DNA from: a virus
Strand: one strand, 5' to 3'
Length of the DNA: 25,778 bases
Virus record (IMG/VR): IMGVR_UViG_3300009152_000181
Span: 1 to 25,778 of that record
Below are positions 3,282 to 12,737 of the stretch, piece after piece. The number at the start of each line of letters is the position of its first letter. Position 1 is the first letter of the stretch. The position numbers and the translations under genes were made by a program. The notes under the pieces were generated by a model that was not told the DNA's origin, did not search any database, and was given only the letters and a program-made list of their open reading frames with translations.

Positions 3282-4169
3282 TTAGAAACTGAATTTACTT
3301 AAGATTGCATCGACGTTCTTCTTGACATCTTGACGCACAGCCTCGTTCCTACGTAACTCAGTCGGTGTTACACCAACCAGTACTTGTTCGAGGTCACGCC
3401 GCGCTGTCTCCAACGCGGGGTCGTTCACAATGTTGAGTGCCTTAGTCAAGTCACACAACTCAAGCGCACCTTCTACCAACGTATCGTGGAAACGTCGAGG
3501 CTTAGCTTCACCCTGCACATAGTCAGTAGTCAGCCTGTCGGACATGCGCTTCAGGTGAGCACTCAGTCGTTCACGCACATCTGACATGGCGTTGTCGATA
3601 CGTTCTTGGGTCAGCTTGTCCAGCTTAGCTTTCAGCTCAGCCTGTGCGGCATTGCCTACGTCTACGCGGAAGTCACCCGCTGTGGGTACGGGCATGTAGT
3701 TAACGCGGAACGAAAACTTAGTCATGATCTCATTCGCGGTGGGGTAGGCATCTCTCTTGAACATGTCACCTAAAGCCATAGCCTGAGCAGTAATCAGCGT
3801 GGGATAGATTGTCACGAACGACTTGACCAACGCAGTGAACTCATGCTCGAAGTCATCGAGCTTCTCAGTGAATGCCATGAACGATATGTTCGGCAACAAG
3901 CGCAAGCCGGAGTCAGACCAAGGCGATGTCTTGTCGTAAACATACTGACGCGCACGACCAACAGCTTGTTGGATAACTTCCAACTCTGTGCGACCTGCAA
4001 GCAGGTGCACGTTGACACGCGCCGCATCTCTAGCGGCGGCATGCTTGGTTGCTACAACCTCATCGGTTGTTGTCTTGTCCAGCTTACGTGCTGTCCATAC
4101 GGACGCGTTGAATTCAACAAGCATCGCGCATGTGTCGATGTTGTAACGAGGGGTGGTGTTTGTATTCAT
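3282..4169 (-). CDS. DUF3150-like protein, partner of the MoxR ATPase/VWA pair (295 aa)
   Basis: I place the start at ATG 4169 (MNTNTTPRYNIDT), which follows AAAGGAAAGC; the open frame extends to 4265 into the upstream gene. The protein is 295 aa, mostly helical and highly charged, with no signal peptide or membrane segment. Length, position and the N-terminal pattern (WTARKLDKTTTDEV, then HAAARDAARVNVHLLAG) fit the DUF3150 family. In phage genomes that family is typically encoded beside a MoxR/CobS-type ATPase and a VWA protein, as here. Family assignment is from memory of this context, not from a search. Biochemical function is unknown. Confidence 0.62.
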   Translation of the reverse strand: MNTNTTPRYNIDTCAMLVEFNASVWTARKLDKTTTDEVVATKHAAARDAARVNVHLLAGRTELEVIQQAVGRARQYVYDKTSPWSDSGLRLLPNISFMAFTEKLDDFEHEFTALVKSFVTIYPTLITAQAMALGDMFKRDAYPTANEIMTKFSFRVNYMPVPTAGDFRVDVGNAAQAELKAKLDKLTQERIDNAMSDVRERLSAHLKRMSDRLTTDYVQGEAKPRRFHDTLVEGALELCDLTKALNIVNDPALETARRDLEQVLVGVTPTELRRNEAVRQDVKKNVDAILSKFSF

Positions 4170-4194
4170 GGTTTGCTTTCCTTTGGTTGGTTGA

Positions 4195-5319
4195 TTACTT
4201 AGTGCCGAAAAAGATTTTGTGCTCAGCCAACATCTTGCCGAAGTTAGTGTTGGTAACGAACACACCTACGCGCTGAGATGTAGACACTGTGTTGCAGAAG
4301 ATTGACTGCATCTCTGCACGCATACGCCACACATACTCAGTGACTGCTGCTGCTTCGTCTCTGGTCTGTGCACGCGACACAAACTGAAAGACTTGAATCA
4401 ACTGCGCGGTGGGATTGTCAGACAGCGGTGCCTTAGCAGGGTCAGCGATCACACGCGCATAGTCACAGATGTCACGACCGAAGCGAACGAACGATGCCAT
4501 CGCCTCAGCAGTAACGATACCGACAGTGCCTATCAATGCTTGCTCAAGAGTGTCGTCGTCAAGTACGTGCATGCCCTCATCCAAGATGTCACCAGCGGCG
4601 GCGAGTGAACGAGGAGTTGCATACGCGAGTTGCACAGACTTGGGATTGAAGATGTGTCCGTTGTCTTTGGATAACGTCTTGCCCTCAAACTTGCCGCCCT
4701 TCTCGTAGTCAAGGAACGAGTCCATCACCATCGGGTTGTTGTCAACGAATGCGATGACCATAGGATTGATACCCGCATCGGTAGCCCAACGCACCCACTC
4801 GACCGCATTCGGCTTACGCATCTTGACGAACACAAGACGGTTACGCAAGTGCGCTTGGATGGAATCGCCAAGACCCTCGACCGATAGATTGGTAGCGGCA
4901 AAGACAACACTACCCTCAACGAAGTGGTAGTTACCAACGCGTTGCTCGTACACGATAGGCGCGAGTACGTTCTTGATGAACTGCGGTGCCTTGGCGATCT
5001 CATCTAAGAACGCCATGATTGGCTTGCCGCCATTGACACCGCGTTGATTAGTCTTGCTGACACCGAAGCGTTCATTGGGAAGCTCACGCGACACGCCGTT
5101 GTCGCGGTCAAGGTCAGGCATCCACACCGAACCATCGGACAACTGAGTGCAGTCGATAGGGTCAACGGCAATGTGGTCAGCGAACTTGGGCATGCGCTTG
5201 AGTTGATGGAACAGCGCGGTCTTACCGATACCGTTCTCACCCTCAACGATTACTGTGCGCTTGTGACCGATAGCGGCGATGAGGTTGATGACCTGAGAAG
5301 AAGAGAGATATTGATTCAT
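4195..5319 (-). CDS. MoxR/CobS-like AAA+ ATPase (374 aa)
   Basis: An AAA+ ATPase. Walker A is GENGIGKT (27-34), Walker B is IMAFLDE (101-107, with D106 and E107), sensor 1 is AATN (141-144), and an arginine-finger candidate sits in HLRNR (157-161). The compact AAA+ core with a short lead-in resembles the MoxR/CobS/RavA group, which work as hexameric motors on a VWA-domain partner. The VWA partner lies immediately upstream in the same operon (5341-6537) and a DUF3150-like gene immediately downstream. The start at 5319 is preceded by AAAGGAAAG. Likely role: remodelling or metal/cofactor insertion on an unknown phage or host target. The ATPase call is firm; the target is unknown. Confidence 0.9.
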   Translation of the reverse strand: MNQYLSSSQVINLIAAIGHKRTVIVEGENGIGKTALFHQLKRMPKFADHIAVDPIDCTQLSDGSVWMPDLDRDNGVSRELPNERFGVSKTNQRGVNGGKPIMAFLDEIAKAPQFIKNVLAPIVYEQRVGNYHFVEGSVVFAATNLSVEGLGDSIQAHLRNRLVFVKMRKPNAVEWVRWATDAGINPMVIAFVDNNPMVMDSFLDYEKGGKFEGKTLSKDNGHIFNPKSVQLAYATPRSLAAAGDILDEGMHVLDDDTLEQALIGTVGIVTAEAMASFVRFGRDICDYARVIADPAKAPLSDNPTAQLIQVFQFVSRAQTRDEAAAVTEYVWRMRAEMQSIFCNTVSTSQRVGVFVTNTNFGKMLAEHKIFFGTK

Positions 5320-5340
5320 GGTTACTTTCCTTTGAGTTGA

Positions 5341-6537
5341 TTACAGAGAGATGTTTAACAGCTTGCCGTGAGTGGGAACGAACGAGTCGTTGTCCACCAC
5401 ACCCCACAGTGACGGCATCGGGGTGCTAGGCGTATCGCAACCGAGGTACCCATCGGTCAGCCATACGATTCCTTTTGCTTCTATCTTGTGCTCACGAATG
5501 TAGTCAACGACAACTTGTGGAGTTGTGCCGCCACCGCCTTGAGGTTTCAAGAGAGATGCAATTAACTCGTACTCAGTTGGCTTGAACAACTGGTCACCAC
5601 ATACAGCGTTGTCCCACCACAGGATACGAACAGCTTCGGGCTTGACCAGTTGACAGATGCGAGCAACCTCGCCAAAGAGTAAACGATAGTAGGGATACAT
5701 CGAACCAGATGTATCGCATGCGAGTATCAACTCGCCGACTGACTCAGTGAAGTGCGATGGCATGATGAAGCCAGACGCAAGCAGTCGTTTGTTGGGAGGG
5801 CAGAAGCGTGAGTTGTCATCGCCTTGGGACATGGAAGTTATCCAGTCCTGCATAGCAGGTCGCCAGTCAGTGATGCGTTCCTTGGCATGACCAAAGATGT
5901 CACGACCACCTGCACCTTGACCCGCTAGCTTGCGAGCAAGCATCTCGCCTTGACGATTGGCATCGTCAATCTGTTTGCTTAGCTTCTCTTTATCGTCCTC
6001 AGCAAACTCGCCATCCTCATGCGCGTCGATGGGTTCATCGTGTCCGTTGTCACCATCGCCATCACCGTCACCTTCTTCGGGTTCCTTACGTCCCTGTTTG
6101 ATGAGGTCATTGAGTACCTGAGGGAAAGACCAACCGAAGTATTTGCGGTCAATCAGTAGCGTCTTTGTGGGGCGTTCAACAAACTCGAAGTTAGGGTCAA
6201 GCTCTTCGATGAGTGCATTGACCACGTAGTCCTGCGCTATGTTGCACAGCTTAGGCATACGCTTGACCTCTGCGCGATACAACACACAATGCTTGAGTGC
6301 AACGTGGAAGTTTTCATGCAGTGCTAGATACCGCAGTTGCTTGCGGTTGAGGGGTGTGATGAAAGACACGCCATACTTCTTGTCACGCCCATTGGTGGAT
6401 GCAGTAGGCACCTTGTCTGATACCTCAGACTTGCCCATGCAGATCACTGCGCTGAGCAGTGCAAACTTTGGATGCCGCATGCAGTCTATGTTGACCGCTT
6501 GTATGCGTTGGTTGAGGGTCATCTTCTCGAAACTCAT
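5341..6537 (-). CDS. VWA-domain protein with metallopeptidase-like N-terminus (DUF2201 type, 398 aa)
   Basis: The N-terminal half has a zinc-peptidase-like HENFH (74-78) followed by H83, within a region like the DUF2201 N-terminal domain. An acidic Gly/Asp/Glu-rich linker lies at about 150-182. The C-terminal half is a von Willebrand factor A-like domain with an intact MIDAS metal site: DTSGS (275-279), a Thr in GGGGTTP (334-340) and TDG (361-363). In MoxR systems the VWA protein is the adaptor or substrate partner of the ATPase, and the ATPase is the next gene downstream (21 bases). ATG 6537 follows AGGAGAAG. Whether the HExxH site is catalytic cannot be told from sequence. Confidence 0.85.
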   Translation of the reverse strand: MSFEKMTLNQRIQAVNIDCMRHPKFALLSAVICMGKSEVSDKVPTASTNGRDKKYGVSFITPLNRKQLRYLALHENFHVALKHCVLYRAEVKRMPKLCNIAQDYVVNALIEELDPNFEFVERPTKTLLIDRKYFGWSFPQVLNDLIKQGRKEPEEGDGDGDGDNGHDEPIDAHEDGEFAEDDKEKLSKQIDDANRQGEMLARKLAGQGAGGRDIFGHAKERITDWRPAMQDWITSMSQGDDNSRFCPPNKRLLASGFIMPSHFTESVGELILACDTSGSMYPYYRLLFGEVARICQLVKPEAVRILWWDNAVCGDQLFKPTEYELIASLLKPQGGGGTTPQVVVDYIREHKIEAKGIVWLTDGYLGCDTPSTPMPSLWGVVDNDSFVPTHGKLLNISL

Positions 6538-7973: not shown

Positions 7974-8607
7974 CTGTTAGCTCTCCCTTGTTGTTGAATC
8001 TCCAGCCATTGATGTAAATGAGTTCTTTAAAGTTTTCTTCACTTGTATAGCCCTCATACGCCTCTCTCAAAGCGTCATAGATTTCATCGGCGTATTCTTT
8101 TGCCCGACTGATCGCAAACTCTTCAAGCTCACAGACCAAGCGCTCGGTGTCGATTGCTTGGTTTAACTCACACACTGGCGCACCTTGCAAGATGCCGTGC
8201 TGTATAACGTCGCCGTTGTCCTCACCCAAAGACGCATAGCATCTGATGCCCTCATAGCTCATCGTCCCTGAGTGGTTGTAGTGGAAAGACTTGCGTTGCA
8301 CGCCCATGCGTGTATCCACCCAATCGTTTCGCAGTAGTTCCAATAGTACTGTGTACCTTGAGAACTCAGGATGTTCGTGTGTGACGAAGTGCTCAATGAA
8401 CGTCATCAAATACACACGCCCTGTCCACGAAGCACCATCGCCTTGAGAATAGAACCCGCTGAATTGAATGTCATCAAGGTCAAACCCTTTAGCGAGTCCA
8501 TCATCTTTGAAGCGTGCGTACACACACTCGTACCAATCATCAGGCGGCTCGCCATACAGTTGTATGGCGTTGTCCTTTGCTCGTTGGTCGAGGTCTTCAA
8601 ATTCCAT
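7963..8607 (-). CDS. Phage protein with FSGFYSQGDGASW motif (214 aa)
   Basis: A 214-aa acidic protein. Residues 47-63 (IQFSGFYSQGDGASWTG) form a motif I recognise from a group of phage proteins, some large-phage members of which have been labelled toxin-antitoxin related without clear proof. A helical C-terminal half (about 140-190) follows. The start at 8607 overlaps the previous gene by 11 bases and the end overlaps the next by 11. It shares an acidic character and gene adjacency with 7572-7973 and 8597-9157. Function is unresolved. Confidence 0.72.
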   Translation of the reverse strand: MEFEDLDQRAKDNAIQLYGEPPDDWYECVYARFKDDGLAKGFDLDDIQFSGFYSQGDGASWTGRVYLMTFIEHFVTHEHPEFSRYTVLLELLRNDWVDTRMGVQRKSFHYNHSGTMSYEGIRCYASLGEDNGDVIQHGILQGAPVCELNQAIDTERLVCELEEFAISRAKEYADEIYDALREAYEGYTSEENFKELIYINGWRFNNKGELTDGV

Positions 8608-9157
8608 TCATTTTCTCCAGTAGTTTCTTCAATACCTCCACCATTTTCTTTTCAAGTATTTCCTCCACAGTTTCAATAATCATCTCCTCCACGCGGTCTG
8701 CGTCAGGGTAGTCGTTGTCGCTGAGGTATGTCTCTATCTTGTCGTCAACGTCATACGCATCAAACTTGTCATCGAAGTCGTAGTCAGTGATTGCGTCATG
8801 CACTTGGTCGCTGATGTCGGTGTCACGCACCTCTCTGCGTACTTGTTCGGTAATCCTATCGTCCATTAACTCCAACACCGAGTCATTGTTCAGATGTTCC
8901 TCTGTGTCGTTGTGCTCGCTTATAGATTCTTCTGCGATGTCCTTGATGGTCTCCCTGAACGCCTCGTCGATATATCGCACGGCACTATGCGCTTCAAGCA
9001 CGGCGCTGACCTTTGCGTCAACTTGTTGGTCAATGTGCTCATTAATTGCGTGAAGCAGGGTGTGGATAAGCGTGGTCTTTGGCTGAGGGGTTACCTCGGG
9101 GGTTGGTTGTGCTACTTGTTCCACTGCGTTGATTTCGGTTTGGTTTACTTGGTTCAT
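8597..9157 (-). CDS. Very acidic coiled-coil phage protein (186 aa)
   Basis: A 186-aa protein. After a Pro/Gln-rich N-terminus (about 1-28) it is almost continuously helical and charged, with dense Asp/Glu (for example DYDFDDKFDAYDVDDKIETY near 128-147) and a C-terminal amphipathic helix (about 157-184). ATG 9157 is preceded by AAAGGAAAGTAATC, a strong leader shared with the genes at 4169 and 5319. The acidity could mean DNA mimicry or a scaffold role, but nothing proves either. Confidence 0.72.
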   Translation of the reverse strand: MNQVNQTEINAVEQVAQPTPEVTPQPKTTLIHTLLHAINEHIDQQVDAKVSAVLEAHSAVRYIDEAFRETIKDIAEESISEHNDTEEHLNNDSVLELMDDRITEQVRREVRDTDISDQVHDAITDYDFDDKFDAYDVDDKIETYLSDNDYPDADRVEEMIIETVEEILEKKMVEVLKKLLEKMNGI

Positions 9158-9159
9158 GA

Positions 9160-9276
9160 TTACTTTCCTTTACTGGTTTGTTGGTGAAGCGCACCAACGA
9201 CGCAACTCGCAGACACCATGTCTGCCAGTTTTTCTACGATGAGTGTTCCCGACGTGCCTTGGCTTACAAGTAGCAC
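9160..9276 (-). CDS. Possible 38-aa peptide containing KLADMVSAS (low certainty)
   Basis: A minus-strand frame from GTG 9276 to TAA 9160 reads VLLVSQGTSGTLIVEKLADM and on to TSKGK. Its stop is 2 bases from the start of the next gene, and the ribosome-binding site for that gene (AAAGGAAAG) forms its last codons, the usual arrangement in this operon. It overlaps the 45-aa membrane-protein gene at its start. The 25-bp palindrome is read in frame as LADMVSAS. The start is weak (GTG, no clear Shine-Dalgarno), so it may be untranslated spacer. Confidence 0.35.
   Translation of the reverse strand: MLLVSQGTSGTLIVEKLADMVSASCVVGALHQQTSKGK
9204..9230. repeat. LADxxSAS palindrome, copy 1
   Basis: A 25-bp imperfect palindrome (9205-9229 core) with arms ACTCGCAGACA and TGTCTGCCAGT around CCA, extended by one A/T pair each side. 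It lies 34 bases beyond the stop of the 45-aa membrane-protein gene on the minus strand. Read on the minus strand it encodes KLADMVSAS; read on the plus strand it encodes LADTMSAS. One of five copies in the window. Confidence 0.9.
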
Positions 9277-9401
9277 ATCACACCTGTATGCACGCGCCAC
9301 ACGAACAGGTCGAGGGCGAGAACGATGAACGCTGTCAGATACGCACCCACAAAGGCGATGCGTATTGGTGTGAATGTTGGTGTTGGTTTGAAGCGTGTCA
9401 T
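9264..9401 (-). CDS. 45-aa membrane microprotein
   Basis: ATG 9401 overlaps the TGA of the upstream gene (ATGA), the standard coupling in this block. The product starts MTRFKPTPTFTPIRIAFVGA and has a clear transmembrane helix at about residues 14-34 (RIAFVGAYLTAFIVLALDLF), then a short tail RVHTGVMCYL. Coupling plus hydrophobic composition make this a believable gene despite its size. Function is unknown; a small host-membrane modulator is one possibility. Confidence 0.7.
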   Translation of the reverse strand: MTRFKPTPTFTPIRIAFVGAYLTAFIVLALDLFVWRVHTGVMCYL

Positions 9402-9625
9402 GCTGTGTACACCGTTGTTAACTTCTCACGCACTTGGTTGAGTACATCGAAGCGGCGTTGTATCTCGCCTATCTTCACATTGCGCCACGCCTCATCCTGT
9501 TCTTCGTAGCGTGAGTCCACATACTCGCGCACATTTCCTCCCGCCCTTTTGTAGATGTGTCCCTGTATGGCGATGAACAATGCCTCTGCTTGTTCCACTG
9601 TTAAGGTTATTTGTTTGTGTGTCAT
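9398..9625 (-). CDS. Small phage protein of unknown function (75 aa)
   Basis: The protein starts MTHKQITLTVEQAEALFIAI and is mostly helical and charged. The opening pattern (a short beta strand, then VEQAEALF...) is typical of small phage proteins of unknown role. ATGA overlaps join it to the genes on both sides. Confidence 0.7.
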   Translation of the reverse strand: MTHKQITLTVEQAEALFIAIQGHIYKRAGGNVREYVDSRYEEQDEAWRNVKIGEIQRRFDVLNQVREKLTTVYTA

Positions 9626-10044
9626 GTTGTTAACTCCTTGGGTATCTCGACTTCATCGCCGAGTTTGCTTGCTACATAGCACCGCATGGCGGCTTCAAGT
9701 AGCGTCTTTCCGTAGTACCTCTTCGCCTCTGTGTCGTTGGCTATGTCGTAACAGCCTTGAGCAATCCAGTCGCCGCCGTTCGTCCTCATCAGCATCGGCA
9801 CTTCCCTCTCAACAATCTCCCCACCTTGCCACCAGCTACCGCTTGGGTTGTATGTCCAGTCCACAAAGTAAGCGAGTGTCGGGTTCTCCACACGCACCAC
9901 CCACCTATCGTCTGACCCATCCGCAAGATACGCTTCCTTGTCCCAGTCCTCGGGTCTACCCAAGCGTGGGCGGTACACCTTGTCACCTTCGGCTTGCGCC
10001 ACCGCCCAGTTAAGGGCGTGTCCTGTCAGTTGATTTGTTTTCAT
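9622..10044 (-). CDS. DUF2591-like phage protein (140 aa)
   Basis: The protein begins MKTNQLTGHALNWAVAQAEG and has a central WQGGEIVEREVPMLMRTNG, WIAQG, then a C-terminal GKTLLEAAMRCYVASKLGDE with a final VEIP. This order (L-x-W-x-VA-x-AEG, GG-x-I-E, W-x-A, GxTxLxAAMRCxVxxxxGDxV) is that of DUF2591, a family common in phages of Proteobacteria and of unknown function. It is ATGA-coupled on both sides. Confidence 0.75.
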   Translation of the reverse strand: MKTNQLTGHALNWAVAQAEGDKVYRPRLGRPEDWDKEAYLADGSDDRWVVRVENPTLAYFVDWTYNPSGSWWQGGEIVEREVPMLMRTNGGDWIAQGCYDIANDTEAKRYYGKTLLEAAMRCYVASKLGDEVEIPKELTT

Positions 10045-10259
10045 TCTGCTTCTCCCTCTGTTATGTCCATGTATTTACGCAACTCTTCAAAGTTGTAGAC
10101 GAAGCGTCCATGCTCATCACGAAAGCGCCACTCATCACAGACAGCGCACCCTGCCTCATAGGTACGGCATCGCTTGCCTATGGCACCACGCAAGAACTTG
10201 AAGCCTTCCTCTGATATGTAGTGGGTCTTAGCCCTTTGGCGTATCTGTCTGACTTTCAT
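10041..10259 (-). CDS. Small basic phage protein with CAVCDEW motif (72 aa)
   Basis: A 72-aa protein, basic at the N-terminus (MKVRQIRQRAKTHYISEEGF). Cys residues at C32 and in CAVC (about 38-41) could form a metal site, but a full four-ligand set is not obvious. The stop is ATGA-coupled to the next gene, and the start abuts the stop of the upstream gene (10260). Function is unknown. Confidence 0.7.
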   Translation of the reverse strand: MKVRQIRQRAKTHYISEEGFKFLRGAIGKRCRTYEAGCAVCDEWRFRDEHGRFVYNFEELRKYMDITEGEAE

Positions 10260-10532
10260 TTAAACCCCCTCATTGAATAAGTCCTCGAATGTGTACCCCT
10301 CCCCCTTTTCAAAGTCCTCCTCTTGCAACGGCGGCAACTGCATTGCCTTCTCCATCATGTGCCACACATCACGCATGGACTCAGGCGTTTCTGACCCTGT
10401 GCATGGGTTGCCATAGCCTGTGGGTTTGCCGTCGTTGTATGTCACCTCTTTCAGACAGTACCAATCCTCCCCGTTGTTCTCTGACTTGGCGTTGACGATG
10501 CGGTAGTTCCATGTGAAATCAAAGTCACTCAT
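10260..10532 (-). CDS. Phage protein with WNYRIV motif (90 aa)
   Basis: A 90-aa acidic protein starting MSDFDFTWNYRIV, with YCLKEVTYNDGKPTGYGNPC in the middle. The pattern W-N-Y-R-[IV] ... E-V-x-Y-x-x-G-K-P is shared by a family of short phage and prophage proteins of unknown function. ATG 10532 is preceded by GGGAGAAG. A 25-bp LADxxSAS palindrome lies just upstream. Confidence 0.72.
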   Translation of the reverse strand: MSDFDFTWNYRIVNAKSENNGEDWYCLKEVTYNDGKPTGYGNPCTGSETPESMRDVWHMMEKAMQLPPLQEEDFEKGEGYTFEDLFNEGV

Positions 10533-10558
10533 TTACTTCTCCCAAAGTTGTTTATACA

Positions 10559-10585
10559 AACTCGCAGACACCATGTCTGCCAGTT
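10559..10585. repeat. LADxxSAS palindrome, copy 2
   Basis: The 25-bp core (10560-10584) is identical to copy 1, and the first arm on the minus strand overlaps the TAA stop of the gene at 10584-11222. In that gene's frame the sequence after the stop reads LADMVSAS, then LYKQLWEK and a second stop directly before the next ATG. Stop-codon readthrough would therefore append the repeat peptide. Spontaneous readthrough is not shown by anything here. Confidence 0.9.
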
Positions 10586-11222
10586 ACTTACGCCGAGCCA
10601 ACAGCTCGGGCACTTTCATGCTCGCCTTGTCCTCCTTTCTTATGCTCATCCACCTGTCACGCAAGGACTCGACTCCGAAGTCGGACACCAAGTCCCACCA
10701 GTTTCTCTTCTCGTTTTTATATTTATGTGGGTCTGCCTCGTAGTCGAGCAGGATGCGGCTCTTCTCCCTTGTCAGTACTGACAAGTACTTCTCCAGCAGT
10801 TTTAAATACTCGTCATTGTTTACTTCTTCAGCGTAGCGTATCTGCGCCCGCACCTTGTGTATCTCGTATGTCATTGGCGACAACACCGCTTTTAATTCTT
10901 TGCGCCACTGGTCAACCCACGCCTCATATCTCGCCTTGCTCATCACAAGCCTCGCCATGCGTTGGCGTTCTGCCAGTATCTCCAGCATGCGTGCCTCTTT
11001 GATGTCGCCACTCACCACCATGTTGTGTAGTTGCTTGGGCGTTTGCTTGCGCGGCGGCTTGCGTTTGGGTTGGCAGTCCTTGCAATTCTTTGAACTGATG
11101 GTCATCAGCACGGCACCTTTCATACCTCGTGCTTGCATTTGTGCACGAGATAGTCGGCGTTTGAATTGTGCAAGGGGCTTTTCTGTCCCGCATTTAGCAC
11201 ATTTTTTGTAGTCCTTTTGCAT
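10584..11222 (-). CDS. Zinc-ribbon phage protein (212 aa)
   Basis: I place the start at ATG 11222 (MQKDYKKCAKCGTEK), preceded by GAAAGG; the open frame goes to 11288 through operator-like sequence. C8-x2-C11 and C47-x2-C50 make a four-Cys zinc-ribbon pattern, as in phage proteins that start KxCxKCGxxKPLxxF and as in some HNH endonucleases, but no HNH active-site motif follows. Residues about 60-212 are helical and strongly basic, with KRNWWDLVSDFGVESLRDRW near the end, suggesting nucleic-acid binding. It is the first gene left of the GATACCC-box region, so it may act in replication or regulation. Confidence 0.68.
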   Translation of the reverse strand: MQKDYKKCAKCGTEKPLAQFKRRLSRAQMQARGMKGAVLMTISSKNCKDCQPKRKPPRKQTPKQLHNMVVSGDIKEARMLEILAERQRMARLVMSKARYEAWVDQWRKELKAVLSPMTYEIHKVRAQIRYAEEVNNDEYLKLLEKYLSVLTREKSRILLDYEADPHKYKNEKRNWWDLVSDFGVESLRDRWMSIRKEDKASMKVPELLARRK

Positions 11223-11241
11223 GAGAAAGACCTTTCTTTTT

Positions 11242-11364
11242 AGTGGGAGATACCCACTTGTTGCCTTGTGATACCCACCATTTTGCATGAGGGGACAAAC
11301 ACGCGGGTATCAGGATTGTCCCGTGGTTATTGGTAATTTTACTACTCCATACCTCGATACCTAC
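11242..11364. promoter_or_regulatory. Cluster of GATACC[C/T][A/G]C boxes (four of six)
   Basis: GATACCCAC at 11249-11257 and 11270-11278, GATACCCGC on the minus strand at 11311-11303, and GATACCTAC at 11356-11364. The first is part of an inverted repeat, AGTGGG (11242-11247) and CCCACT (11253-11258). Two more boxes lie at 11519-11527 and 11560-11568. The boxes sit just upstream of the leftward zinc-ribbon gene and look like binding sites for one phage protein (repressor or replication initiator). Confidence 0.65.
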
Positions 11365-11415
11365 CTGATTTCCAGAATACTAAAACCTTTTTTCTTTTTT
11401 TCAAACAAAACCACA

Positions 11416-11479
11416 CCCACTTACCCGTATATATATATATCTATCTTTTAATCTCTTATATATATATAGGTATTGTGGG
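11416..11479. other. AT-rich dyad, candidate DNA-unwinding element
   Basis: Alternating TA runs at 11428-11440 and 11457-11468 flank an AT-rich centre. The flanks mirror each other: CCCAC (11416-11420) with ACC, and GGTATT then GTGGG (11475-11479), so the whole 64 bp is a long imperfect inverted repeat. A T-rich stretch (11381-11401) lies to its left. It is surrounded by GATACCC boxes in a 352-bp non-coding gap (11289-11640). An origin of replication is the simplest reading; a cruciform operator is an alternative. Confidence 0.55.
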
Positions 11480-11518
11480 CTGGACAACGCTTGAAGCCCC
11501 GCAGGTATTGACGATGCC

Positions 11519-11589
11519 GATACCCGCGTGTGTGTCACGATGCGCAAAATGGTGGGTATGATACCCACTACTGTATTTAAACACAGTAG
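11519..11589. promoter_or_regulatory. Operator-like palindromes next to the AT dyad
   Basis: A GATACCCGC box lies at 11519-11527. A perfect 17-bp palindrome, GTGGGTAT-G-ATACCCAC, spans 11552-11568. Sharing its last base, a second, different imperfect palindrome (CTACTGT...ACAGTAG, 20 of 22 positions symmetric) spans 11568-11589. Two unlike dyads side by side suggest two DNA-binding proteins, or one operator beside a hairpin. Confidence 0.6.
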
Positions 11590-11605
11590 AAGGATTAGTT
11601 ACTGT

Positions 11606-11630
11606 ACTGGCAGACAGTGTGTCTGCCAGT
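11606..11630. repeat. LADxxSAS palindrome, copy 3 (perfect)
   Basis: A perfect palindrome of 11-bp arms (ACTGGCAGACA and its complement) around GTG. It lies 10 bases beyond the stop of the 55-aa gene (11641). The minus strand reads KLADTLSAS in a frame that stays open to 11456, though that frame crosses the origin-like region and is probably not a gene. Confidence 0.9.
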
Positions 11631-11640
11631 TTGCCTGTTG

Positions 11641-11808
11641 TCAGAGGAGGTTTAGCTGTTTGCATTGGGTCTTTATGGTGTGCCAGTCCTCTTTCCAGCG
11701 TGCCTGTCGCAGTATCTCTGCACGCCGTGGGTCTTTGAGTCTGAGTTCTTCGTCGGCTTTGAGTTGCGCCTTGAGGGCACTGAGTTTGGCTTTGATGGAT
11801 GGTTTCAT
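11641..11808 (-). CDS. 55-aa basic microprotein
   Basis: ATG 11808 follows TTAAGGAAGAACACC (AAGGA site, good spacing). The product MKPSIKAKLSALKAQLKADE continues ELRLKDPRRAEILRQARWKE and ends KQLNLL. It is a single long, highly charged helix, net basic, likely an oligomer-forming coiled coil or nucleic-acid binder. It is the last of three tiny genes in a row and is followed by palindrome copy 3. No family recognised. Confidence 0.65.
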   Translation of the reverse strand: MKPSIKAKLSALKAQLKADEELRLKDPRRAEILRQARWKEDWHTIKTQCKQLNLL

Positions 11809-11819
11809 GGTGTTCTTCC

Positions 11820-11927
11820 TTAAACGAACAGATACCAGATTGGTGTGAAGCTACGCTTGCAGACGATAGCCATGCGGTACTCATGCGCCATGATTTGGCG
11901 GATCTCTTTCAGTTGTGCTTTGGTCAT
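11820..11927 (-). CDS. 35-aa microprotein
   Basis: ATG 11927 follows CTAAGGAAACATC, in which the stop of the preceding gene (TAA) is part of the ribosome-binding site. The product is MTKAQLKEIRQIMAHEYRMA followed by IVCKRSFTPIWYLFV: a charged helix, then a hydrophobic/aromatic end. Its own stop TAA is again fused to the next gene's AAGGA site. Function is unknown; the tight, repeated gene-junction design is the main evidence. Confidence 0.58.
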   Translation of the reverse strand: MTKAQLKEIRQIMAHEYRMAIVCKRSFTPIWYLFV

Positions 11928-11936
11928 GATGTTTCC

Positions 11937-12071
11937 TTAGTATTTGCGGAAGGTTGGGTTGTCGAGCAGGAAGGCTTTGAGTTCTTCGCCAATGGCTTTA
12001 GCCCAACGGCGTTTGTTCGTGCGGAAGCAGTAGTCTTGAAGCGTTAAGAGTCGCAGGTAGTGTTGTGTCAT
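11937..12071 (-). CDS. 44-aa microprotein
   Basis: ATG 12071 follows CTGGAAAGTCATC. The product begins MTQHYLRLLTLQDYCFRTNK and ends DNPTFRKY, mixing aromatic and basic residues. It is followed 9 bases later by the next microprotein gene. The spacing and leader resemble those of its two downstream neighbours. No family recognised. Confidence 0.6.
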   Translation of the reverse strand: MTQHYLRLLTLQDYCFRTNKRRWAKAIGEELKAFLLDNPTFRKY

Positions 12072-12190
12072 GATGACTTTCCAGTTGAGTTGAGTTGAAT
12101 GCGACCGATCAAATTATTTGAACGATCAGGGGCTGAATGGACAAGAAAAGAAACAGCGGCGGGACAGGACATCCACGCCGCTTTGAAAAA

Positions 12191-12215
12191 ACTCGCAGAC
12201 AACTTGTCTGCCAGT
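12191..12215. repeat. LADxxSAS palindrome, copy 4
   Basis: Arms ACTCGCAGACA and TGTCTGCCAGT around ACT. It begins one base past the TGA stop of the gene at 12217-12609. The minus strand reads LKLADKLSAS and stays open to the start of the 44-aa gene at 12071. The plus strand reads ALKKLADNLSAS. The 145-bp gap 12072-12216 holds nothing else I can support except a short TCAAAT-T-ATTTGA palindrome (12109-12121). Confidence 0.9.
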
Positions 12216-12216
12216 T

Positions 12217-12609
12217 TCAGATTGAAGCCAAGAAGCGACGCTTCTCAGCCGCAGTCATTCCCTCGTACGCTGTCACAAGGCGAGCAACCTTGTCCTTCTT
12301 CTTGCTTGTCTTTGGTTTCTTTGCGTCTGCCTCGACATCCACAAAGATGTTGTCGAGAATCCTGTCGGTGCGTTTCTGCTCAGCAGTGCCTCGCCCGAAT
12401 GTCCAACCCCGCTGACCCTCGTAAGGCTTGCGTGTGGCACTAGGTAACTCAGAGACATAGAACACGACATAAGGCACTGCATCCTTGCGTGTACCTATCC
12501 CGTTCTTGAGCAGTGTGTCTAGCAGACTGGCAGACGTGATGTCTGCGAGTTTCAGAGTAGGCACGATAGCCTGATAGATGTTGCTGTTGATGTGTGTTGC
12601 AAGTTTCAT
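12217..12609 (-). CDS. First gene of the leftward operon, unknown function (130 aa)
   Basis: I choose ATG 12609 (MKLATHINSNIYQAIVPTLK) because GGAGAG lies 7 bases upstream; the frame is open further, through a terminator and promoter. Residues 20-28 are KLADITSAS, the peptide form of the dispersed palindrome. The middle (residues 41-78, GTRKDAVPYVVFYVSELPSA and following) is mixed; the end is strongly Lys-rich (KKPKTSKKKDKVARL) with MTAAEKRRFLASI. As the promoter-proximal early gene it could be a DNA-binding regulator or host-takeover protein, but no family is recognised. Confidence 0.72.
   Translation of the reverse strand: MKLATHINSNIYQAIVPTLKLADITSASLLDTLLKNGIGTRKDAVPYVVFYVSELPSATRKPYEGQRGWTFGRGTAEQKRTDRILDNIFVDVEADAKKPKTSKKKDKVARLVTAYEGMTAAEKRRFLASI
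12526..12550. repeat. LADxxSAS palindrome, copy 5 (inside a gene)
   Basis: Arms ACTGGCAGACG and TGTCTGCGAGT around TGA. It lies inside the coding sequence at 12217-12609, read in frame on the minus strand as KLADITSAS. It is the most diverged copy: besides the wobble-position differences it has one change next to the centre. It is the only copy that is unambiguously translated. Confidence 0.88.
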
Positions 12610-12621
12610 TGTTAACTCTCC

Positions 12622-12648
12622 AAAAGAAAAACCCCGCAACTGGCGGGG
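12622..12648 (-). terminator. Intrinsic terminator in the leader of the leftward operon (attenuator)
   Basis: On the minus strand a 6-bp GC stem (CCCCGC, loop CAGTT, GCGGGG) is followed by TTTTTCTTTT. It lies between the leftward -10 (12685-12690) and the first gene start (12609), so a transcript from that promoter would meet it after about 30-55 nt. This layout implies attenuation or antitermination. Without a promoter upstream it would serve only as an insulator. Confidence 0.75.
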
Positions 12649-12684
12649 CGACAGAACGACTGAGTTCCCCCAATCGATAAATCT

Positions 12685-12737
12685 ATTATAGCACAAACAG
12701 GTTGTGGTATCCCCTTGACATGGTATATGTGTATACC
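12685..12737 (-). promoter_or_regulatory. Leftward extended -10 promoter with operator-like sites
   Basis: The minus strand has TGCTATAAT (12693-12685), a consensus extended -10. No TTGACA occurs at the proper spacing; instead GATACCAC (12711-12704 on the minus strand), close to the GATACCCAC boxes at 11.2-11.6 kb, overlaps the -35 position. Just upstream is a perfect palindrome GGTATA-TGTG-TATACC (12722-12737). This is probably the main early leftward promoter, under control of the protein that binds the GATACC boxes. Confidence 0.62.

Follow-up and report, generated by a model that had tools for sequence, protein, structure and literature searches.

Dispersed palindromes in a freshwater phage and its relatives that change together with a small leftward gene, a candidate regulator

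A 25,778-nucleotide stretch of freshwater phage DNA (IMG/VR virus record IMGVR_UViG_3300009152_000181, positions 1 to 25,778; hereafter the window, whose positions serve as coordinates) carries five dispersed 25-bp palindromes. We propose that they serve as operators: the first leftward gene of the locus (gene 1) would encode the DNA-binding protein that recognizes them, probably as a homodimer, and we give this reading a probability of about 0.72. Across the phage group the sites hold fixed positions, and the N-terminal part of gene 1 and the site sequences are replaced in a coordinated manner. From this we infer that the gene 1 product binds the sites and does so as a dimer, and we further take the effect to be repression, not activation or some other use of the bound DNA. 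A preliminary description of the window, made from the sequence alone, had considered a mobile element, an RNA hairpin, and a protein-binding site with an attached, selected peptide; of these, the protein-binding site is supported here and the others are not.

Palindromic sites at fixed places in the locus

The five palindromes match ACTSGCAGACANNNTGTCTGCSAGT with 0, 0, 0, 0, and 1 mismatches, and 100 dinucleotide shuffles of the sequence give 0 expected copies. Their coordinates (Table 1) and their gene context, with four copies beyond or overlapping leftward stops and one within a coding sequence, agree with the preliminary description. Site 1 lies 34 nucleotides (nt) past a mechanically called open reading frame (ORF) of 45 amino acids (aa) and 47 nt upstream of the start of the leftward gene 8597-9157. 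Site 2 overlaps the stop of the leftward gene 10584-11288 by 1 nt and lies 27 nt upstream of the start of 10260-10532, also leftward, and site 3 is found 10 nt past another mechanical call, an ORF of 55 aa.

Table 1. Coordinates of the palindromic sites, gene 1, and neighboring features in the window
Feature	Position	Strand	Basis or remark
Site 1, operator-like palindrome ACTCGCAGACACCATGTCTGCCAGT	9205..9229		Position and flanks same in relatives
Site 2, sequence identical to site 1	10560..10584		Motif match
Site 3 ACTGGCAGACAGTGTGTCTGCCAGT, adjoins AT-rich non-coding stretch	11606..11630		Kept in relatives, including the distant L056
Site 4 ACTCGCAGACAACTTGTCTGCCAGT, 1 nt past gene 1 stop	12191..12215		Placement kept in nearly all lineages, with any palindrome type
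Site 5 ACTGGCAGACGTGATGTCTGCGAGT, inside gene 1, minus strand reads LADITSAS	12526..12550		
Gene 1, 130-aa protein, first leftward gene, proposed cognate DNA-binding regulator	12217..12609	-	Co-variation with sites
Zinc-finger/endonuclease-like gene between sites 3 and 2	10584..11288	-	PHROG HNH endonuclease, weak
Extended -10 promoter-like sequence TGCTATAAT upstream of gene 1	12685..12693	-	Sequence
Leader hairpin followed by T-run (terminator-like), between promoter-like box and gene 1	12631..12649	-	
GC hairpin and TGTTTCTTTTCTTGTCC directly after site 4	12138..12181	-	Retained in most lineages, next to a palindrome that changes

Scanning IMG/VR yielded 38 stretches with the window motif, from about 34 contigs, and when mismatches are allowed the copies in these relatives occupy the same five orthologous places with conserved flanks. 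Four near-complete relatives (G001, G002, G003, and G005; 57-66 kb) have exactly five copies each, all at this locus. Spacing between sites is variable, since the small intervening genes differ; the sites hold their place relative to conserved genes.

Relatives were collected via the large terminase (TerL) and via gene 1. Where the window motif is missing, a different repeated palindrome often occupies the same positions, with 0-2 copies in shuffled controls. Their half-sites are of the types GGGGACA, GGGGAA, GGGGTAG, GGGGGTA, GTGGACA, GGGTCAC, CAGTATC, GAGAGAGAA, GGGAGAGA, CGGGTCAC, GTGGAACA, and ACTCAGTATC, among others. The degenerate 25-mer of the preliminary description recurs at orthologous sites in related phages, but other lineages hold unrelated palindromes at the same junctions. 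Even among phages whose terminases are nearly identical, the palindromes at these places are quite different. A scan of the genome collection gave three contigs from metagenome-assembled genomes (MAGs), none with a repeated palindrome family of at least three copies. Two TerL relatives within bacterial MAG contigs, L266 (Rhodocyclaceae) and L267 (Chitinophagales, 83.8 kb), show no clear family of repeated palindromes in the part retrieved.

In each lineage the first leftward gene encodes a protein of roughly 114-157 aa. In 90 loci that have two or more copies, a site begins -2 to 19 nt from the end of the gene 1 stop codon. A second site is usually near the gene 1 start (inside the gene, some 33-50 nt before the start, or at the promoter still farther upstream), and the remaining sites lie at gene junctions downstream of gene 1. 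By a strict criterion some of the 112 loci have no site 4 palindrome, and visual inspection reveals an imperfect one in most of them. A regulator gene in first position, with one site close to its start, another past its stop, and more at junctions, is the arrangement of an autoregulated repressor.

The contig L003 illustrates how sites are exchanged. Gene 1 and three sites in this contig belong to the CAGTATC type, but site 2 is still GCAGACA; with this mixed set the contig looks like a natural recombinant. Its flanks of site 2 align with L129, which has a CAGTATC site there, and those of site 4 with L025, a GCAGACA-type contig; at site 4 the sequences are TAACT[CAGTATC..GATACTA]AGTTTTTTCCAAGCGG (L003) and TAACT[CGCAGAC..GTCTGCG]AGTTTTTTCCAAGCGG (L025). 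These alignments show that the site cores change and the flanks stay. Two further contigs, L209 and L214, have gene 1 and GGGGACA sites though their TerL is only 49-54% identical to that of the window, and the module of gene 1 and sites may move between more distant phages.

Coordinated replacement of gene 1 and its sites

Which protein do the sites follow? We compared motif distance with protein distances over 87 contigs by Spearman correlation, which treats contigs as exchangeable and does not fully model shared ancestry, and obtained a rho of 0.66 for gene 1, 0.39 for the small terminase TerS, and 0.06 for TerL. The partial correlation with gene 1 given both terminases was 0.59 (permutation p 0.001; the largest of 999 permutations gave 0.096). 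When gene 1 was split, the partial correlation was 0.55 for the N-terminal part and 0.08 for the last 40 residues, and 23 pairs with similar N-termini and exchanged C-termini showed little change in the motif (mean distance 0.14 versus 0.32 overall). The N-terminal part thus tracks the palindrome type, and the C-terminal part with the pattern 'DKVARLV..Y..LTAAEKRRFL' is exchangeable. Homologues of the window-type gene 1 were found only with CTSGCAGACA-like sites, and in the pairs L132/L137, L144/L143, and L003/L025 gene 1 and the palindromes differ at nearly identical TerL and TerS (distance <=0.03). The zinc-finger/HNH-like protein encoded between sites 3 and 2 was rejected as the specificity determinant (partial correlation -0.04, p 0.58, n=19).

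Gene 1 is alignable over its length between the window, CAGTATC, GTGGACA, and GGGTCAC types; in hhalign comparisons the GGGGACA and GAGAGA types were too divergent to join. At least three unlike C-termini (TAAEKRRFL, KLASTAxAQAF, and KAEFDALIxELR types) are combined with different N-terminal types, which looks like shuffling. An AlphaFold2 model from 26 sequences (pLDDT 77), better than one from 8 sequences, has helices at 9-24, 30-35, and 41-54, a beta hairpin at 63-70 with a conserved GQRG, and a helix at 76-88. The order of these elements is compatible with a winged helix, a suggestion from topology only.

A cultured phage appears to carry a version of this system. Planktothrix phage Pag-Yong1 (OL906435), with a TerL 43% identical to that of the window, has 38 matches with up to 3 mismatches to CGGTTCAGNCTGAACCG (0-1 in shuffles), many of which lie between genes, some 20 nt ahead of a start codon. 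The C-terminal motif of gene 1 recurs at the end of the first leftward gene of Pag-Yong1 (hhalign probability 93%, E 4e-7). Three records named after different cyanobacterial hosts, OL906435, OQ594354, and PP438419 (Pag-Yong1, MinM2, and Pra-JY27), are 65,014-bp genomes with identical gene 1 proteins, and they possibly represent one phage or a contaminant.

A putative repressor and the alternatives

We hypothesize that gene 1 is made early, as the first gene of a leftward early operon, and that its product would bind the site in or near its own start and so regulate itself. It would also bind the sites at downstream gene junctions, where it would block or dampen transcription of early and replication genes. 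In this model gene 1 would be a repressor whose operators, placed within the transcribed region, would act as roadblocks in the manner of stoperators. Tyrosine integrase (PF00589), resolvase (PF00239), and ParA (PF13614) are absent in 14 near-complete genomes; therefore, classical lysogeny is not indicated, and early shut-off or the exclusion of co-infecting relatives is the likely use of the system. More tentatively, and with the odds somewhat against it, the system might resemble superinfection immunity in phages without recognizable lysogeny genes: each lineage would have a private early repressor with matching operators, and the specificity module (the N-terminal part and the site cores) would be exchanged under diversifying selection, giving about ten mutually foreign 'immunity types' among phages whose terminases are near-identical.

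Several observations weigh against gene 1 as a repressor that binds these sites. The protein shows no recognized DNA-binding domain, with no clear Pfam or PHROG match and no PDB sequence match, and Foldseek searches with two models against the PDB and one against viral structures gave nothing significant, which is why the winged helix is a topological suggestion at most. The gene 1 families A2, A3, and A4 have no mutually detectable homology by hhalign, and the terminase relatives HTVC027P, HTVC023P, and DSL-LC04 have no comparable site set in the stretch examined. Furthermore, gene 1 and the sites could travel as one early module, which would inflate the correlation; the split between N- and C-terminal parts and the swaps in place reduce this objection and do not remove it.

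The best surviving alternative, which we nevertheless regard as unlikely, is that the palindromes are centromere-like or origin-associated sites and that gene 1 organizes or partitions DNA, or controls a nearby AT-rich putative origin, without repressing transcription. A few dispersed palindromic sites with cognate specificity resemble the four inverted repeat (IR) sites of phage N15 (PMC7205306). Site 3 adjoins an AT-rich non-coding stretch at 11290-11605, and the region 11249-11600 (59% AT) contains five GATACCC/GGGTATC repeats and an inverted repeat of 50 nt (80%; 11271-11320 / 11510-11559). L056 has a similar AT-rich stretch after site 3, and the stretch in the window is a candidate replication origin. 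However, the absence of a ParA-type ATPase from 14 near-complete genomes, the repeated association of the sites with both ends of gene 1 and with gene junctions, and the about 38 sites spread over the whole genome of Pag-Yong1 all argue against such a role.

Still less probable is an action of the palindromes as RNA, in which they would form intrinsic terminators or regulatory hairpins where transcripts end and gene 1 would be an RNA-binding antiterminator similar to lambda N with boxB. Diversification of specificity is known for N-like antiterminators, site 4 is often followed by 5-6 T, and three copies in the window score as terminator-like. However, an RNA stem, the 3'-end hairpin of the preliminary description, is not supported because pairing between positions 4 and 22 is not maintained: in a count that is descriptive, the sites being related sequences, 61 distinct sites have C-C (20), G-G (19), G-C (10), C-G (10), or other combinations (2), so that these positions pair in 20-21 of the 61 and hold C-C or G-G in 39. 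The T-run after site 4 is present in many lineages and missing in several, and an Rfam search of the window gave no match to an RNA family. Dyad symmetry together with G/C freedom in the absence of pairing at positions 4 and 22 fits recognition of double-stranded DNA.

The palindrome can also be read in frame as (K)LADxxSAS on both strands. This arithmetic of the preliminary description is correct, but the significance it gave to the 'wobble' positions is a coincidence of the motif, as the C/G variation at positions 4 and 22 is also found in non-coding copies. Site 5 is the sole copy translated within a conserved gene. There, CTCGCAGACATCACGTCTGCCAGT encodes LADITSAS in the window and CTGGTGGACAACCAGTCCACGAGT encodes LVDNQSTS in a GTGGACA-type relative; in that type the site at the same place of the gene 1 protein encodes (L/A)VDxxSTS, and therefore the peptide follows the operator. 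The peptide was not kept where the DNA changes. The proposed selection at the peptide level does not agree with the unrelated palindromes that other lineages hold at the same junctions; since the non-coding copies share the freedom between G and C and other lineages differ at these junctions, the peptide is a by-product, the incidental coding content of an operator.

Two further alternatives have almost nothing left in their favor. Packaging (pac) sites read by TerS would be consistent with TerS being the neighboring gene and with its raw correlation with the motif, but that correlation drops to 0.17 given gene 1, and palindromes differ at TerS distances of 0.00-0.03 (L132/L136 and the three pairs named above), so that specificity does not follow TerS and we rejected it as the site reader. 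A small mobile element of the Rickettsia RPE or REP kind, perhaps kept for its LADxxSAS reading, would explain identical repeats at gene ends that are readable in frame, but it is excluded because the positions are conserved among relatives, where we saw neither presence/absence polymorphism at orthologous sites nor spread to new places, the palindrome type swaps in place between conserved flanks, and the near-complete genomes have no copies outside the locus.

Boxes of a -10-like kind, comparable to the one upstream of gene 1 in the window, are present in 89 of 111 gene 1 leaders, and in several other lineages a palindromic site takes the place of the leader hairpin. The GC hairpin after site 4 has TGTTTCTTTTCYTGTCC as its tail. 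Of 297 sites, 60 have a -10-like hexamer within 60 nt downstream and 34 upstream, versus 24 at random, so these hexamers are somewhat more frequent downstream; extended -10 boxes, with 3 downstream, 2 upstream, and 5 at random, were not enriched, which ruled out the sites as a general promoter element. Elsewhere in the window, 3282-6537 encodes a MoxR-like AAA ATPase, a VWA/DUF2201 protein, and a DUF3150 protein; the VWA protein has the PHROG label 'HNH endonuclease', and Pfam gives DUF2201 on a relative.

Relation to known systems and significance

Cluster A mycobacteriophages (L5, Bxb1, and TipsytheTRex) carry numerous repressor sites scattered over the short spaces between genes in transcribed regions, their stoperator motif and repressor co-vary between phages, and a site near the repressor gene was proposed to be autoregulatory (PMC6550527, PMC9283540). 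The phages described here likewise have dispersed copies of one site in such spaces and a candidate repressor gene that co-varies with the motif. However, cluster A stoperators are asymmetric 13-bp sites that follow the direction of transcription, and a monomer carrying two DNA-binding domains binds them, whereas our sites are palindromes of 19-25 bp, usually 4-6 per contig (38 in Pag-Yong1). Moreover, gene 1 comes first in the early operon of phages in which no integrase, resolvase, or ParA was found, and it has no match to the L5 family with its helix-turn-helix (HTH) and stoperator domain, nor any Pfam, PDB sequence, or fold match. The system may work like stoperators, and it is not a member of that family.

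Cluster K mycobacteriophages have dispersed SAS/ESAS repeats just upstream of start codons, and of these the ESAS are inverted repeats, with a consensus that varies from subcluster to subcluster (PMC3203893). The placement before start codons is shared with our sites; in contrast, SAS are asymmetric 13-mers and ESAS are imperfect 17-bp half-sites with a variable spacer of mostly 4-13 bp. The function of SAS/ESAS is unknown in that work, and here a cognate protein is proposed from co-variation. The SopB protein of N15 with its four IR centromere sites (PMC7205306) is similar in having a few palindromic sites on a phage genome, a cognate protein, and a specificity that differs between relatives. 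SopB depends on SopA, a ParA protein, which has no counterpart in the 14 near-complete genomes, and, unlike the IR sites, ours bracket the regulator gene and lie at gene junctions. Early phage regulators and their sites also diversify in step in lambda-type N/boxB and T7-type polymerase/promoter pairs. Those pairs rely on recognition of an RNA hairpin or a promoter, in contrast to the symmetric DNA sites without conserved pairing described here.

In the titles and passages covered by our literature search, which left most subscription journals outside, the regulator/operator family was not described. We conclude that the family is real, with gene 1 as the presumed binding protein. Natural co-variation here ties an unnamed family of proteins to its probable DNA sites, and such co-variation over some ten site types is rare material for a protein-DNA recognition code. 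As Pag-Yong1 apparently carries a version of the system, a test may not need uncultured phages. Each lineage looks as though it had a lock and key of its own to switch its early genes. Why do phages without a sign of lysogeny keep rapidly diversifying pairs of operators and regulators? Early shut-off, the exclusion of relatives, and control of replication are possible answers.

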